A stretch of 38,330 bases of DNA from Myxococcales bacterium (lineage in GTDB: Bacteria; Myxococcota_A; Bradymonadia; REDH01): assembly GCA_947496715.1 (NCBI GenBank), contig CANMDT010000018.1, forward strand, positions 1 to 38,330. The letters run 5' to 3'. Positions 21,220 to 31,467 of this stretch are shown here, one piece after another. The translations under genes and the position numbers were made by a program. The notes below the pieces were generated by a model that had not been told where the DNA came from, did no database searches, and worked only from the letters and a program-made list of their open reading frames with translations. Within the stretch, counting starts at the first letter, position 1. The number at the start of each line of letters is the position of its first letter.

Positions 21220-24857
<3,638 letters not shown>

Positions 24858-24861
<4 letters not shown>

Positions 24862-26024
24862 CGCCCTGCCCCGGAGGCCTCAGCGGGGAGCGCAGCGCCG
24901 CTGCCAACAGGCGCAGATGCAGGCTCCGCATGGGCGATGACCTTGGCGCCCGCGTCGAGACCGCTCTGGCCTACGACCACAACCTCGGCGCCCTCGACGA
25001 GACCTGAGGTGACCTCGACGAAGCCGCGGTACTCGAAGCCGAGCTTGATGGACTGACGCTCTGCGACCGACTCTTTGCCCTTGGCGCGGAGGATGAAGAC
25101 CGAGGTCTCTTGGCCGCGGTAGAGCACCGCACGGGCGGGGATGCGGAGAGCGTCGGCGTGGGCGTCTACGACGAACTCGGCGCGGACGAACATGCCTGGC
25201 CGGAGCCCTTGGGTCTGGTCGGCTGGGATGGCGACCTGGATGCCTGCGGTGCCGGTGGAAGCGTCGACGGTTGCGTCGATGCGGGTGACCGTGGTCTCGA
25301 GTTCCCAGCCTGTGCGCGCGTCGGCGCGGAGGCGGACTTTGGAGCCGACGGTGAGGCTCTGGAGCCAGCGCTCCGGGAGCAGGAAGCGGGCGGACAGGGC
25401 CTTGGGGTCTGCGAACTGACAGATGGGCATGCCGGGCGTGACGAGCGCGCCAGGCTGTGCTTCGCGGCGGAGCAACAAGCCGTCGAAGGGCGCGCGGATC
25501 TCGCCGTCGCCGGCACGGAGCGCAGCTCGTTCGCGCGCCGATGCGGCGGAGGAGAGGCGGGCCTCGAGCTCGGTGAGGATCTGGCGGGCAACGAAGCCCT
25601 TTTCGACGAGCGGGCGGACGCGCACAATCTCGCGTTCCACCTGCGCGTGCAGGCGGCCGGCCTCTTCTGCGGCCATCGCGGCATCCTGCGCGTCGACGCG
25701 GGCGAGCAGCGCGCCCTTGGCGACGGTTGCGCCCTCCTCGACCTCGAAGGAGAGGAGCTTTCCGGAGGCCATCGTGGAGAGGGTCACCGAGGCTTCGCTG
25801 GCAAGCGTCGCAGTTGCCGTGACCACCTGCTCCATGGCGCCCCGAGCCACCTTGGCGACCTCGACTGGCACGGGGGCGGCGCTTCCTTCGGCGGTCTCCG
25901 TTGGGGCCTCGCCTGCCGGCTTGTTACAGGCGGCGACAAACATCAGCCCGAAGAACGCGAATCGCACGAGAGGCGATGCGGTTCGTTTGCCGTGGCTCGC
26001 AGCAGGTTCTACAAGGAGGTCCAT
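24858..26024 (-). CDS. RND efflux periplasmic adaptor (membrane fusion) lipoprotein
   Basis: 388 residues. Links the RND pump to an outer-membrane channel. The N-terminus has a lipobox FVAAC (Cys33), so it is probably lipid-anchored to the inner membrane. Lipoyl-like halves flank a helical hairpin: VEEGATVAKGALLARVD before it and IRAPFDGLLLRREAQPGALV after, then a beta-barrel (VRLRADARTGWEL) and a membrane-proximal domain, the order found in AcrA-type adaptors. The 19-residue positively charged lead before the hydrophobic core is long; a GTG at 25967 is an alternative start but has no ribosome-binding site. First gene of the two-gene pump operon; the TlpA-type gene is divergent. Confidence 0.92.
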
Positions 26025-26052: not shown

Positions 26053-26652
26053 ATGAAGATGGAGCCCGCAATCGCAGCAGCGAGCCCGACAGCCCCGTGG
26101 TGGCGGCGCGTGCCTTGGCTGACCGTAGCGGTGCTCAGCCTGCTCGTCGTCTATAACATCCATTGGTACCGTTCGCACCCTCAGTCAGCGTCAGGAACGG
26201 GGCCGCAGAGCGCACTGATCGGCCAGCCCGCACCCGGCTTTTCGCTTCGGACGATGGACAGCGAGACCGTGACTTCGCTCGCGGCCAGCAACGGCCAGGT
26301 TCGGCTCATCGACTTCTGGTCCACCGGTTGCGGCCCCTGCAAGCGTGAGCTGCCCTCGTTGGCGGTGTTGGCGCACGACCTTGGCAGCGAGCCCTTCACA
26401 CTGCTGTCGGTCAACATCGACGACGATATGGCCGACCGGGGCGCTGCGATCCGCCGCGCGCTGGGTGGCGCAGCGGGAGCCTTCCCGATCCTGTTGGATG
26501 ATGGGTCGGCGTCCAGCCGTTACGCGGTCTATCGCATCCCGTTCAAGGTGCTGGTGGACCGTGAGGGCGTAGTTCGCCGCGTCTACACGGGCGGCACCGA
26601 TCCGGACGAGCTTCGCGCCCACATCCAGGAAGTCCTCGCCACGAAGGGGTAG
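26053..26652 (+). CDS. TlpA/ResA-type membrane-anchored thioredoxin-like protein
   Basis: 199 residues. A single membrane segment (about 22-36) precedes a thioredoxin-fold domain with IGQPAPGFSL, FWSTGCGPCKRELP (CGPC at 93-96) and the cis-proline strand RIPFKVLVD. Such proteins reduce or rearrange disulfides outside the cytoplasmic membrane, for example in cytochrome c maturation; the CGPC active site is complete. The exact substrate is not shown. A second ATG at 26059 is better placed relative to GAGAG (26048-26052) and would drop two residues. The gene is alone and divergent from the RND adaptor. Confidence 0.88.
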   Translation: MKMEPAIAAASPTAPWWRRVPWLTVAVLSLLVVYNIHWYRSHPQSASGTGPQSALIGQPAPGFSLRTMDSETVTSLAASNGQVRLIDFWSTGCGPCKRELPSLAVLAHDLGSEPFTLLSVNIDDDMADRGAAIRRALGGAAGAFPILLDDGSASSRYAVYRIPFKVLVDREGVVRRVYTGGTDPDELRAHIQEVLATKG

Positions 26653-26656
26653 AGGC

Positions 26657-28171
26657 TCAAGGGTTAGCGCGGACCTTGGAGAGCGCCTGGAGCCGTCCAT
26701 TGGGAAGCGCTGCAAAGCCGCTCCAGCGCCGGTTGTGGACAACGATGTTGTCTTCGTTCCAGAGGAAGGCGTAGGGCAGTTCGGCGACCAGGCGCTGCTG
26801 CAACAGGGCGTAGGCGCTGCGGCGCTCTTCAGGGCTCTTGGCGGCCTCGGCAGCCTCGATGAGCCTGTCGGTGTCGGGGTCGACGAAACGACCGCGGTTG
26901 GCACCGGACCAGCCGTTGGCCTCGGTGGGGATCGAGGCGGAGTGGAAGACCCAGCGGAAGATTCCGGGCTCCTGCACCGACGGCCACTGCAGCGTGGCGA
27001 GCTCGAAGTTGCCCCGCTTGAGGTCGTCGAAGAAGGTGCCCCACTCGAGGCTCTGCACCTCGGTGCAGAGGCCGACGCGGGTGAGGTCGGCAGCGATGAG
27101 CGTTGCGATGCTCCGTCGCAGCTTGTTGGTGGAGGTCTTGATGGTGAGATTGGCGCGGCAGCCGTCGGCGGCCTTGGGGAGTGAGGCTTCGTCAAGCAAC
27201 CTCGAAGCCTGAGCGGGGTCGAAGCCGAGCGGTCGGAGCGAGGCGTCGTGGAGCGCGTTTCGAGGCGGGAGAAAGCCGTCTGCGACGTTGGCCGTCCCTG
27301 CGAGCCGACTGTCGATGATGCCCTGCCGATCGATCGCGAGGCTGATGGCCTCGCGCACCCGCCGATTGCCCAAGGTGGGGTGCTGCGTGGCGATGGCCAT
27401 GTAGGTGAGTTTGAAGGAGTCGGACTGCTCCACGGCGAGAGAGTCGTAGCCTCGAACAACGCTGAGCAGGTTGGGCGGGACGGCGTTCTGCACGAGGTCG
27501 ACGCGCCCGGTGGCGAGCGCAAAGAGCCGGGCGTTGTCGTCCACCATGGGCTTGAACCAGAGCTCGGAGGGCTGGCCGGGGCGCGGCGCAACGGGCGCGA
27601 AGACGATGGTTCCGTCGCTCTCCGTGCGGAGGAGCCGCCAGTGGCCTGCGCCGATGGTTGCCTCGGCCTTGTCTGCGCCGGCGGAGCGGAGCCAGGCTGC
27701 GGGCAGCACACCCATCTCGAGTTCGTAGCGGAGCGATGGTTTGGCAGGGTTGGCTGTGAGGCGCAGGCTGCGCGGACCGAGCACCTCGGTGGAGATGGTG
27801 CTGAAGAGGGCCCGATAGGGGCTCGGCGAGGCAGGGTCTGCCATCGATGCGTAGGTCGCAGCGACATCGGCGGCGAGCACGGGGCTGCCGTCGGAGAAGC
27901 GTGCGTCGGCGCGGAGCTCGACGCGGAGGCGACCGGAGCCTTCGTCATCGATGCTGGCAGCGAGGTCGAGTTCGGTCTCGCCGGACGGCGTGTCGTTGGT
28001 GGTAAGACCCGGGAAGAGGAGCCGCGAGAGTTTGCCGTCGTAGTCGCTGGCGGCGAAGCGGGGGTCGATGTTTTTGGGCGCCGCTTCGAGCGCCACGACG
28101 AGGCGTTCGCGCGGGCCTTCAGCGCAGCCGGCGCTCAGCAGAGCGAGAAGGAGCGCAACAAGGCGGATCAT
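26657..28171 (-). CDS. ABC-transporter solute-binding lipoprotein, family 5 (peptide/nickel type)
   Basis: 504 residues, typical length. Signal peptide with LLSAGC (Cys16). Family 5 features: ALEAAPKNIDPRFA near the N-terminus, FSDGSPVLAADVAATY, NRRVREAISLAIDRQGI, and the C-terminal ELPYAFLWNEDNIVV. Homologues bind peptides, nickel or other solutes outside the membrane. No permease or ATPase gene is adjacent. The start overlaps the anti-sigma stop (28168-28171), so it is cotranslated with the regulator, which is an unusual context for a solute-binding protein. Confidence 0.88.
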   Translation of the reverse strand: MIRLVALLLALLSAGCAEGPRERLVVALEAAPKNIDPRFAASDYDGKLSRLLFPGLTTNDTPSGETELDLAASIDDEGSGRLRVELRADARFSDGSPVLAADVAATYASMADPASPSPYRALFSTISTEVLGPRSLRLTANPAKPSLRYELEMGVLPAAWLRSAGADKAEATIGAGHWRLLRTESDGTIVFAPVAPRPGQPSELWFKPMVDDNARLFALATGRVDLVQNAVPPNLLSVVRGYDSLAVEQSDSFKLTYMAIATQHPTLGNRRVREAISLAIDRQGIIDSRLAGTANVADGFLPPRNALHDASLRPLGFDPAQASRLLDEASLPKAADGCRANLTIKTSTNKLRRSIATLIAADLTRVGLCTEVQSLEWGTFFDDLKRGNFELATLQWPSVQEPGIFRWVFHSASIPTEANGWSGANRGRFVDPDTDRLIEAAEAAKSPEERRSAYALLQQRLVAELPYAFLWNEDNIVVHNRRWSGFAALPNGRLQALSKVRANP

Positions 28172-29358
28172 GGTCCGGCGAGGAGCCGGCGCGCAGCGGC
28201 CGCCACTGCGCCCACTTCGCTCCGCGCTGCGCGCTGCAGCAGCGGCGTGGCATCGGCCCGACGAGCGGCCGCACGGAGGGCACCCGCGCCGAGCGCAGCA
28301 CCATCGCAGAGGCGGGTATCTGCGCCGCAGGAGGCAAGGAGTGCTTCGAATCCGCGAAGCGACGAGGCCGTGGCAGCAGCGCGAAGTTGTGACCAGCCCT
28401 CTGCGCCCACCCCGCCAGCCCGGAGCAGCGTGTCGAGCGCGGCGCGCGTTGCAGGGTCGAGGGCAGGGAGGGAAGCTGGCTGCGAGCCCCCAACCACCAC
28501 AGGCGCGGGGGGCGCGGCAGCAGCAGCGCGGGCCTCTCGAACCGCAGCCCGGCCTTCGGGAGCGGCGGCGCGGACCGCGGGGGCAGCGGCCTCATCCTCA
28601 TCAGGAGCAGCGGCAATGCCGGCTACGCTGTCGGGTCCTGCACCCGCCTCGGCCGGCATCGGCTCCTCCTGCCTGGTGTCCGAGCGGAGGCGAGGCGCGC
28701 GCGACAATGCAGAGGCAGCCGTCTTTGGTGCCTCGGTGGCGGATTGCGCGGTCTCGGCCTTCGCCTTCGATACCTCTGCTCGCTCCGTCGCCCCGGGCGG
28801 CGCGGCGGGCGGCGGGGCGCCCTCCCCTGCGCGCGGGGCCGGCTTCTCGTCAGCCTCGAACACCACCTCCGCTGCTGCCCTCGGGCTCGGAGCGGTGACC
28901 TCTTCCGCAGCGACCGAGCGGGCGGCCGCTTCGGCGTTCGGCAGCGGCTCACGCGCCGCGGCCGGTGCGGGCTCGACCTGCGCCATCTTGGGAGCCTCTG
29001 GCGGCGCAGCGCGGGTAGGCTCGGGCACCGAACCGACCTTCCAGACGACGACCGCCAGCGCGACGGCGAAGGCGGCCCAGAACCAGCGCCCGATCGGCCT
29101 GCTGGGAGCAGACTCGGTCACCCGCTGCACCCCGGGAGCGTGCGCCGCAGCGTAGGCGAGCACCCGGGCCTGCGCCTCGGCCGAGAGCGCCAAGCCCTCC
29201 GGCCGGAGCACGCTCCAGGCCTGCTGCAGCTGCAACCAGGCCGCGGCGCACTCGGTGCATTCCGCGAGATGGGCCGCGAGGTCACCCGTCGGCTGCGTCT
29301 CCGCATCGAGGCAGTCGGCCAGCGCATCCTGGCAGTTTGTGCAGTCGAACTTGGTCAT
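28168..29358 (-). CDS. Zinc-finger (zf-HC2) transmembrane anti-sigma factor with long linker and helical C-terminus
   Basis: 396 residues. The N-terminal zinc-binding anti-sigma motif HxxxCxxC is seen as His30, Cys34, Cys37, with a further CTNC at 6-9. One membrane segment (about 91-109) follows. Residues about 112-290 form a low-complexity Ala/Pro/Glu-rich stretch with no recognised domain, probably periplasmic. The last 100 residues are Ala- and Leu-rich helices resembling HEAT-type repeats. Role by family: holds the ECF sigma factor at the membrane until a signal releases it. The sigma gene lies 85 bases upstream on the same strand; the solute-binding protein overlaps its 3' end. Confidence 0.8.
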   Translation of the reverse strand: MTKFDCTNCQDALADCLDAETQPTGDLAAHLAECTECAAAWLQLQQAWSVLRPEGLALSAEAQARVLAYAAAHAPGVQRVTESAPSRPIGRWFWAAFAVALAVVVWKVGSVPEPTRAAPPEAPKMAQVEPAPAAAREPLPNAEAAARSVAAEEVTAPSPRAAAEVVFEADEKPAPRAGEGAPPPAAPPGATERAEVSKAKAETAQSATEAPKTAASALSRAPRLRSDTRQEEPMPAEAGAGPDSVAGIAAAPDEDEAAAPAVRAAAPEGRAAVREARAAAAAPPAPVVVGGSQPASLPALDPATRAALDTLLRAGGVGAEGWSQLRAAATASSLRGFEALLASCGADTRLCDGAALGAGALRAAARRADATPLLQRAARSEVGAVAAAARRLLAGP

Positions 29359-29393
29359 GGAGCCACTGGGGCGCGCGAGCAGGCGCAGCGCAA

Positions 29394-29420
29394 GGAACGG
29401 CCGTGTGGCAGAATGGGTCT
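29394..29420 (+). promoter_or_regulatory. Possible ECF-type promoter, antisense to the sigma factor gene
   Basis: GGAAC (29394-29398) and GTCT (29417-29420, followed by A) are separated by 18 bases, resembling the sigma-E type pattern of GGAAC plus a downstream GTCTA-like element. It lies between the anti-sigma and sigma genes but points right, so it would transcribe antisense to the minus-strand sigma gene. The match could be chance. Confidence 0.25.
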
Positions 29421-29443
29421 AGGCGCGCGTTGCATAGGGCGCA

Positions 29444-30115
29444 TCAAGCACCCCTCTCGCCAGCGCCAGGGGCATCGAACGAAAAGCCGGCGTAGTCGCC
29501 GAAGGTCTCCCGCAGACGACGGCAGGCATAACGGAAGCGCGCCTTGATGGTATCCTCGTTCGCGCTCAGGATGGAGGCGATTTCGGGGAAGCGGAGCTCC
29601 GCGACGACCCGCAGTTCGAAGACTTCGCGCTGCTCTGCCGGCATCTCTGCAAGCGCCGTCGCCAGCCGCGCGTTGAACTCGGCTCGGACGGGGCCCTGAT
29701 CGGCAGGCAGCTGGGAGGTATCGGCAAAGAGGTCGATGCGCCGAAGGTTGCCCGAATCGCCGATCGGCTCGTCGAGCGAGTCGACCCTTCCCTTCTCCGC
29801 CCGCCGCGACTCGTCGATGCAGAGGTTACGGGCCATGGTAAAGAGCCAGGTGCGAAACTTGGCGCGAGGCTCGTAGTTCGGTGCCATGCGCACCACGCGG
29901 AAGAAGACCTCTTGGGTGAGTTCTTCGGACTTGGCGGCAGAGCGGGTGCTCCGAAGCATGAAGCGGAGCACAGAGCCCTGATGGCGAGCGAAGAGCTTGT
30001 TGAAGGCCCCTTCGTTCCCCTCCTGGTATCGGAGCATGAGCTCCTCGTCTGATGGCTCCGATGCGAGCGCCGCCGCCGCTGCAAAGAGCAGGGCTACGAG
30101 GAGCGCGGCCACCAC
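29444..30115 (-). CDS. ECF-type RNA polymerase sigma factor
   Basis: 223 residues from a GTG at 30115. Region 2 is clear: LMLRYQEGNEGAFNKLF, AKFRTWLFTMARNLCIDESRR. Region 4 is also clear: AEMPAEQREVFELRVV, FPEIASILSANEDTIKARFRYACRRLR. It directs core RNA polymerase to a small regulon, opposed by the downstream zf-HC2 anti-sigma factor. The start is uncertain: the first 18 residues from GTG 30115 are hydrophobic (ALLVALLFAAAAALA), which is odd for a cytoplasmic factor. The next ATG (30037) would cut off SDEEL, which is conserved in this family. The gene starts 10 bases after the upstream lipoprotein stop. Confidence 0.88.
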   Translation of the reverse strand: MVAALLVALLFAAAAALASEPSDEELMLRYQEGNEGAFNKLFARHQGSVLRFMLRSTRSAAKSEELTQEVFFRVVRMAPNYEPRAKFRTWLFTMARNLCIDESRRAEKGRVDSLDEPIGDSGNLRRIDLFADTSQLPADQGPVRAEFNARLATALAEMPAEQREVFELRVVAELRFPEIASILSANEDTIKARFRYACRRLRETFGDYAGFSFDAPGAGERGA

Positions 30116-30124
30116 GCTGGCTGC

Positions 30125-31405
30125 CTACTTGCCGCCCGTGCGGGTCTTGATGGCTGTCACACTCTCGGCCAGGAGGGCGCCGAACTTCATGCCGCCCCAG
30201 GCAGGGATCTCGGTCTTGGCGTGGGGGCCGCTCTTGGCGCCCTCCAGCTTGGCGATTGTGCTCGCGTCGCCGAGCTCCTGCAGGCAGCGCACTGAGAGCG
30301 CGGCGGCATGGATATTGGCGTCACCGATGTGGGCCTCGAAGACGCGGCGAGCGTTGTCACCCATCTCAGCCAGCTTGGAGAGGCTGCAGACCGACTTGCC
30401 TGCCTCCGAAAAGCCGTTCGGGACAATGCCACGGTCCCATGCGCCATACTCTCCCGAGACGGGCAGTTTGGAGAGCGCAAGTTCGAGACCTTCAGAGTTC
30501 TTCGCCTCGACCAGCTTCTGGAAGGCGGCCCAGCGCGAGACGGACTCCTTCTGGAGCATGTTGGTGTAGCTGGCGATGAGCGAGTCGTTGACGACCATGC
30601 CCTTGAGCATGTCCATCATGACGTTGGCGAAGATGGGGTCGGTCTTGGGGTCAGCAGCACGAGCAACGAGCCAGCCCTGAAGCGCAGCAGACTCCTTGAA
30701 GGCCGCGAGGTCGTCGAGGAAGTCGACGCGCAGCTGTGGGTCGTTGGGGATGTCGGAGCGGTCCCAGACGGGCAGCAGGGCCGCAGCGAGGGCGTCAGCC
30801 TTGGGGAGCCAGGCAGTTCGGTTGAGCTGGGTCTGCAGGCCGCGGACCTGGGCGAAGGTGAGCTCCTTGCTGCTCAGAATCTTGATGAGAATCGGCGACA
30901 CCTTTTCGGCGCCAAGGATGCCGGCGATGTCGCGGAAGGCGACGGTGCCAACCTCAGCCTCAGGTTTCCAGGACTGGGCCACCCACTCCAAGAGAAGGGC
31001 GTCGATAGCCTCCTTGGTGGGGGCATCGGTCACGGCGAGGCGGATCTGGTAGAGGAGGTCTCGCGCCTTGATGCGCTTGGGCCCCTCCTTGTCGAGGAGG
31101 TCTGACTTGATGCGTGGCAGCGCGTCTCGGACGGCACGGCTCCGGGTTGCTTCGGGGATCTGCTTGAGGAAACCTCCGCCCATGAGCATTCCAGCGGAAT
31201 AGTCGGCCTGATCAACGAGGTGGAAGAGCGCTACCTTGCGGAGTTCGTCGTTCGACTTGGGGTCGAGCAAGACCGTCTTGTAGAGCTCCTCGGAGGCCTC
31301 CGTGTTTGCCCACTTTTCTAGCTTGCTTGGGGTGTTCTGACAACCGGCCGAGAGCAGGGTCAGCGCGATGAGGCAGGGGAGTCCAAGACGGAGGGGAGAG
31401 CGCAT
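30125..31405 (-). CDS. Helical-repeat (HEAT-like) lipoprotein, unknown function
   Basis: 426 residues. Signal peptide with LLSAGC (Cys22). The mature protein is almost all alpha-helical, with repeated units of about 35-40 residues (for example DELRKVALFHLVDQAD, and a later HAAALSVRCLQELGDAST) resembling HEAT-type repeats, a protein-binding scaffold. No catalytic motif is seen. It is first in a minus-strand cluster with the ECF sigma, anti-sigma and solute-binding genes, so it may be an envelope sensor or partner of that regulatory unit; this is inference from position. It is divergent from parA. Confidence 0.65.
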   Translation of the reverse strand: MRSPLRLGLPCLIALTLLSAGCQNTPSKLEKWANTEASEELYKTVLLDPKSNDELRKVALFHLVDQADYSAGMLMGGGFLKQIPEATRSRAVRDALPRIKSDLLDKEGPKRIKARDLLYQIRLAVTDAPTKEAIDALLLEWVAQSWKPEAEVGTVAFRDIAGILGAEKVSPILIKILSSKELTFAQVRGLQTQLNRTAWLPKADALAAALLPVWDRSDIPNDPQLRVDFLDDLAAFKESAALQGWLVARAADPKTDPIFANVMMDMLKGMVVNDSLIASYTNMLQKESVSRWAAFQKLVEAKNSEGLELALSKLPVSGEYGAWDRGIVPNGFSEAGKSVCSLSKLAEMGDNARRVFEAHIGDANIHAAALSVRCLQELGDASTIAKLEGAKSGPHAKTEIPAWGGMKFGALLAESVTAIKTRTGGK

Positions 31406-31439
31406 TCGGTTGCTCGCTTGCAGAGGGAGAGGCGCGCCC

Positions 31440-31467
31440 TCCTAAGACGAGGGGGCGGGACGGTCAA
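31440..31467 (-). promoter_or_regulatory. Possible promoter for the lipoprotein-sigma-anti-sigma cluster
   Basis: On the minus strand TTGACC (31467-31462) is followed after 16 bases by TTAGGA (31445-31440). Strong -35 half, weak -10 half. Position fits the gap upstream of the lipoprotein start at 31405. Confidence 0.25.

Follow-up and report, generated by a model that had tools for sequence, protein, structure and literature searches.

Within the window, by which we mean the whole 38,330-nucleotide stretch of DNA that was analysed, a solute-binding lipoprotein (SBP) is encoded directly behind an ECF sigma factor (SIG) and its putative membrane anti-sigma factor (ASF), and the question raised by this arrangement is whether the binding protein serves the sigma factor as a sensor, serves an importer encoded elsewhere, or does both. 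The window comes from contig C18 of genome G000, whose assembly (3.56 Mb in 244 contigs) is 93% complete. A first-pass annotation of the window had described a minus-strand cluster of four genes, headed by a second lipoprotein (LIPO), and this was borne out: open reading frames, strand and spacings were all as claimed (Table 1). LIPO and the sigma gene are separated by 9 bases and the sigma and anti-sigma genes by 85 bases, and the anti-sigma gene runs into the SBP gene through an ATGA stop-start overlap. Protein families were searched in Pfam (with E 0.1 as the limit for calls of no match) and in NCBIfam at its curated cut-offs; the lipoprotein calls for LIPO and SBP, and the labels Ffh, PilB and RND used below, were made by eye and not by family search.

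Table 1. Features of the cluster and its surroundings, with positions in the window
Feature	Position	Strand	Length	Basis or remark
RND-type pump	21220-24861	-		Named by eye and by position after the adaptor; conserved neighbour, link to cluster uncertain
HlyD-type membrane fusion protein (adaptor)	24858-26024	-		Conserved neighbour, link to cluster uncertain
TlpA-like thiol-disulfide oxidoreductase (CGPC)	26053-26652	+		Converges on SBP
SBP (family 5 solute-binding lipoprotein)	26657-28171	-	504 aa	SBP_bac_5; LLSAGC by eye
ASF (putative membrane anti-sigma factor)	28168-29358	-	396 aa	H-x3-C-x2-C; profile match to relatives
SIG (ECF sigma factor)	29444-30115	-	223 aa	GTG start; Sigma70_r2 and Sigma70_r4_2
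Hydrophobic N-terminal leader of SIG	30059-30115	-		Side observation
LIPO	30125-31405	-	426 aa	ORF; LLSAGC lipobox read by eye
Promoter-like element 5' of LIPO	31439-31467	-		TTGACC in 4/4 genus genomes; weak -10

Judged by domain content, SBP is a family 5 solute-binding protein (SBP_bac_5, E 7.9e-51, 173.7 bits against a cut-off of 32.4), and SIG is an ECF sigma factor by its make-up, with Pfam matches to Sigma70_r2 (1.3e-17) and Sigma70_r4_2 (2.7e-10) and none to sigma3; its GTG is the sole standard start codon upstream of a conserved SDEEL. The N-terminus of ASF carries H30-x3-C34-x2-C37, read in the sequence, and is followed by one hydrophobic helix at about residues 88-108, a long low-complexity part and a helical C-terminus. 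No Pfam family matched ASF at E 0.1, and the NCBIfam antisigma model scored 23 bits, below its cut-off of 100; however, its first 50 or so residues match the anti-sigma factors of relatives by profile (hhalign probability 82, E 1e-5), and those proteins carry zf-HC2 and/or TPR, with zf-HC2 found in three of the five that were scanned. Because of the histidine-cysteine motif and this profile match, we infer that ASF is a membrane anti-sigma factor that would bind and inhibit SIG. Its structure model was of low confidence (mean pLDDT 45) and too poor for use. LIPO matched no family in Pfam (E 0.1) or NCBIfam; its AlphaFold model is an all-helical HEAT/ARM-like solenoid (pLDDT 87), and a search of the PDB with this model returned only helical solenoids, none at E<=0.001.

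The conservation of the cluster was assessed in 57 genomes of the class Bradymonadia, phylum Myxococcota (labels beginning with f or g are working labels for the families and genera of the analysis). The first-pass annotation had proposed this comparison as a check, and the order LIPO-sigma-antisigma-SBP is indeed kept in relatives: in 4/4 genomes of the genus, G000 included, and in four of the five genomes of family f7. The congeners G001-G003 are metagenome-assembled genomes, and in G001 the LIPO gene is split across two contigs. In f7, the order is present in G053-G056, with one additional called ORF between LIPO and sigma in G054, and is followed in G053, G054 and G056 by TlpA, the adaptor and all or part of the pump (with one additional gene in G056); G048 has sigma-antisigma-TlpA-adaptor-RND without SBP. 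Within f1, G004 has LIPO-sigma-antisigma-TlpA-TlpA-adaptor-RND, again without SBP, and in G005 SBP adjoins LIPO with no sigma pair between them, the sigma matches there being only at paralog level. All four genes also lie within about 13 kb of one another in G009 of f4. The TlpA-like protein, the HlyD-type adaptor and the RND pump thus belong to what is conserved around the cluster in f1 and f7, and the cluster as originally delimited was right in its four genes but too narrow in its boundaries. LIPO itself gave a profile match in 48/57 genomes, and among the 32 with a strong match (E<=1e-70) it lies less than 2 kb from sigma in 23, counted from coordinates. The neighbour from which LIPO diverges is Ffh-like in f1 and f7 (L032, L033, L034, L036 and L037) and parAB in the genus of the window.

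An SBP ortholog was found in 34 of the 57 genomes, one in each. A phylum-level search of 377 genomes drawn evenly gave 72 matches at 1e-60, of which 38 were outside the class; 36 of these 38 loci were fetched and 33 counted, L124, L125 and L135 being left out because SBP was not called there. All 64 SBPs compared matched the window protein (P0004) better than either of the two other SBPs of G000. In f5, the largest family, the sigma pair was beside SBP in 0/19 loci, one of which (G044) lies on a contig that ends just ahead of SBP, and a TlpA-like gene adjoins SBP in 19/19. For L040 and L087 the neighbourhood was obtained with tblastn, and for L172 by coordinates; the sigma neighbourhoods read exclude the f2 genomes G025 and G045 and family f6. 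G010 has LIPO-sigma, SBP-TlpA and OppB-OppC at three separate places, a layout that would make knock-outs clean. At five f5 loci (L077-L079, L089 and L091), SBP-TlpA comes after genes for a PilB-like ATPase, a short protein resembling a lipoprotein and a small membrane protein, all on one strand. G024 carries a different ECF sigma factor (L082, 14591-15169) about 4 kb from SBP, and its ortholog of SIG sits on C101.

The binding protein had been described as lacking a permease and an ATPase, which is true of the locus but not of the genome. In G000, contig C14 encodes an Opp-type permease with an SBP and both ATPases, and the ends of contigs C19 and C1 encode the same OppB (99% identical), also with an SBP; a further OppB, on contig C215, has no SBP ahead of it and is cut by the contig end. 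The C1 end (L149) and the C19 end (L101) share one OppB gene, and these contigs are probably neighbours in the chromosome. OppC and NagZ were looked for in G000 and not found, the contig ending inside the C215 OppB gene; the congener G001 has OppB, OppC and NagZ (L154). In a FastTree tree of 28 OppB proteins, the C215 OppB, on a long branch, shares descent with OppBs of the class that include the SBP-adjacent ones of G017 and G039 (support 0.961); five SBP-adjacent OppBs of other classes join next (0.985), and those of C1/C19 and C14 are excluded. The G017 OppB is 44% identical to that of C215 versus 38% to that of C1/C19; its BLAST bit scores, contrary to identity and tree, are higher for C1/C19 (189 and 187) than for C215 (173).

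Orthologs of the C215 OppB were found in 36/57 genomes and co-occur with SBP in 32, and 19 genomes have neither, for an agreement of SBP and OppB in 51/57. The exceptions are G014, G034, G043 and G049, with OppB but without SBP, and G040 and G044, with SBP but without OppB; G004, which is 97% complete and belongs to the same family as G000, lacks both. The OppB threshold (E<=1e-55) was chosen after seeing the list, in which the lowest accepted match was 2.4e-56 and those below it were 2.6e-53 (another piece of the G002 gene) and 8e-44. Shuffles of SBP presence confined to single families gave agreement in at least 51 genomes with p 0.003; the Fisher tests in this work treat genomes as independent although they share ancestry, and the SBP-OppB test alone was repeated within families. 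SBP was seen at none of the 20 OppB loci that were fetched: OppB-OppC-NagZ adjoin in 11, one or two ORFs precede NagZ in two, OppB-OppC stand without NagZ in four (one cut by a contig end), and OppB is alone or unreadable in three. The idea of an orphan SBP was therefore rejected, given the SBP-less OppB elsewhere in the genome, its matching distribution and its grouping with SBP-linked OppBs. One OppDF pair is visible in G000, next to another SBP, so that the ATPases are either shared or missing from the assembly; three single-contig f5 genomes have two pairs each. Sharing of the ATPases between importers is likely.

The genes around SBP, OppB and the sigma pair in relatives point to the cell wall. 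In G017 of f2, OppB, OppC, NagZ, TlpA, SBP, PBP4, anti-sigma, sigma, OppF and OppD follow one another within about 11 kb. OppD-OppF-sigma-antisigma is found in G008, G017, G028 and G035, and G043 has OppF-sigma-antisigma followed by PBP4, cut before OppD; altogether, the ECF pair lies with OppF or OppDF in 5/5 f2 genomes carrying an importer gene together with a sigma ortholog. G041 has sigma-antisigma-PBP4-TlpA-NagZ with no OppDF there. The NagZ and PBP4 calls are well above their NCBIfam cut-offs (251 bits versus 207 for NagZ of G001, and 226 versus 107.8 for PBP4 of G039). Of the 33 SBP loci counted outside the class, 18 have PBP4 no more than two genes away, six have OppB/C at such a distance, 22 have either and 11 have neither. 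This linkage to peptidoglycan genes is a feature of relatives and is absent from the window itself. Furthermore, AmpG scored above its cut-off in 12 of the 38 genomes with SBP or OppB versus 15 of the 19 without (p 0.0016, genomes treated as independent); G000-G003 carry AmpG alongside the importer genes. Because of the co-distribution with OppB, the G017 row and the PBP4 and OppB/C linkage outside the class, SBP most likely acts as the binding lipoprotein for an Opp-type importer whose genes are split, and the NagZ and PBP4 neighbours suggest that its cargo is probably peptidoglycan-derived peptides or muropeptides.

The regions upstream of LIPO (19/26), of SBP in f5 (15/19 loci) and of OppB (13/20 loci) were scanned for promoters against a background of 20-base block shuffles; among the LIPO regions, those of the three congeners, two that nearly duplicate L043, and two with doubtful starts (L189 and L192) were dropped. 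This crude scan, by regular expressions and dyad counts, found no ECF promoter common to the three sets, and only sigma-70-like signals rose above the shuffles. TTGAC occurred in 12/19 LIPO regions versus 3.3 expected, and TTGAC-N14-19-TANNNT in 4/19 LIPO regions (0.2 expected), 5/15 SBP regions (0.1 expected) and 0/13 OppB regions. The enrichment of TTGAC at the start of the operon suggests that the sigma factor and anti-sigma factor may be made all the time, the sigma factor becoming active after its release from the anti-sigma factor.

We see about an even chance that the cluster makes up the regulatory end of a cell-wall-recycling module split across the genome, in which SBP serves a remote OppB-OppC importer encoded with NagZ. 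SBP would bind wall fragments and deliver them to the Opp-type permease encoded elsewhere in the genome, and NagZ, which cleaves muropeptides, would belong to the same module. ASF would hold SIG at the membrane until a periplasmic signal of the state of the wall or envelope, read by the C-terminal domain of ASF, freed it to control import or wall genes; the HEAT-like LIPO may or may not help in reading the signal. The first-pass annotation had instead proposed that SBP only signals to the anti-sigma factor and transports nothing. The lack of permease and ATPase genes at the locus and the gene order kept across the genus and f7 agree with such a dedicated sensor, but it had also been held that permease and ATPase genes elsewhere with matching regulation would speak against it, and a permease was found: the C215 OppB in G000 and an SBP-less OppB-OppC-NagZ operon in relatives, distributed like SBP and akin to the OppBs that adjoin SBP in G017, G039 and other classes. 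As for regulation, the crude scan gave no shared ECF motif. A role in sensing alone is accordingly very unlikely.

It is also unlikely, if less so, that SBP both imports and contacts LIPO or the periplasmic part of the anti-sigma factor when loaded or empty, import thereby setting sigma activity. Such a double duty would fit the stop-start overlap of the anti-sigma and SBP genes, the contiguity of sigma, anti-sigma and SBP in the genus and in 4/5 f7 genomes, and the fact that SBP and LIPO both read by eye as lipoproteins and stay adjacent in G005 without the sigma pair; however, no f5 locus showed SBP next to the pair, and in G004 and G048 the pair is retained in the absence of SBP. We likewise doubt that the ECF pair and SBP are neighbours by descent only, with the sigma factor answering general envelope stress. 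The sigma-70-like operon start, the lack of an ECF motif in the scan and the presence of sigma without SBP or OppB in G004, G025, G041, G045 and G048 are all as this would predict. Yet the pair adjoins SBP in f1 and f7 and the ATPase genes in f2, and in 3/7 fetched loci of f17, outside the class, a comparable sigma factor accompanied by a zinc-finger-like anti-sigma factor lies about 6.4 kb from SBP; such varied importer partners are not explained by inheritance of one arrangement. In addition, sigma is present in 32 of the 38 genomes that carry SBP or OppB (it is missing from six) versus 5/19 of the others, a comparison from which shared ancestry was not removed and in which the ortholog threshold (E<=1e-70) was set after viewing the list (2.7e-71 accepted, 5.9e-63 next). 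The recurrence of the pair near this SBP or near the genes of its transporter in other families thus favours a cell-wall-linked ECF system over inertia, and the situation in f5, like the genomes that have only the pair, indicates that the link between sigma and importer is not obligatory.

In Escherichia coli, MppA is a second binding protein that uses an Opp-type permease, for murein peptide. The split importer proposed here is similar in that a second SBP would be served by such a permease; however, the window SBP is no closer to MppA (3.5e-17) than to an OppA (4.4e-18) or a NikA (1.5e-24), and we know of no ECF pair associated with MppA-Opp. The sigma pair resembles known ECF factors with zinc-finger membrane anti-sigma factors (reviewed in PMC8999054) in its sigma2-sigma4 make-up, H-x3-C-x2-C and single hydrophobic helix, and differs from this general kind in the long low-complexity part, the TPR-like end in relatives, the HEAT-like lipoprotein ahead and the attached importer genes. 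According to PMC9790009, YejBEF-YepA of Agrobacterium is a muropeptide ABC importer in which YepA (Atu1774), and not the operon's own YejA, is the binding protein, and it replaces AmpG in species that lack AmpG, Alphaproteobacteria using one or the other. Both systems would pair ABC import of cell-wall fragments with a binding protein encoded apart from the permease operon, and the anticorrelation of AmpG with SBP or OppB recalls that alphaproteobacterial choice. Here, however, SBP is a putative lipoprotein beside an ECF pair with a weak match to YejA, and the permease is Opp/Nik-like. Membership of the YejBEF-YepA system was rejected on comparisons that covered YejA (1.4e-7 over about half of the length of SBP) and YejB (72 bits for the G001 OppB, which scores better with Opp/Nik models, versus a cut-off of 445).

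ECF pairs, family 5 SBPs and ABC importers for muropeptides are each known; in the open-access literature searched, no combination of them with a HEAT-like lipoprotein was met, and no paper joins an ECF/anti-sigma pair to an SBP or muropeptide importer. These data offer a testable function for an uncharacterised gene set of Bradymonadia and other Myxococcota, namely a split wall-fragment importer tied to an ECF switch and perhaps an alternative to AmpG. Since cultured Bradymonadales are predators, as stated in PMC7188933 and PMC7460792, the imported fragments could be those of prey as well as the cell's own; the genus of the window is uncultured, and predation there is only possible. A more speculative and rather unlikely extension is that the anti-sigma factor reads the loading state of a muropeptide-binding SBP, directly or through LIPO, with sigma activity then set by the flux of wall fragments, whether the cell's own or those of lysed prey.

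Within the genus, the proteins of the cluster differ in their rates of change. ASF diverges fast (74-80% identity over its length) compared with LIPO (92-93%, for the whole proteins of G002 and G003) and SBP (93-94%); the last 100 or so residues of ASF are kept, with invariant cysteines C344 and C351, and in other families this end is TPR-like. The hydrophobic leader of SIG could act as a membrane tether. In f2, f4, f5 and f7, SIG orthologs mostly open with a short amphipathic segment, after which come G and basic residues; among genomes of the genus, amino-acid and silent codon changes in the leader are about equal in number.
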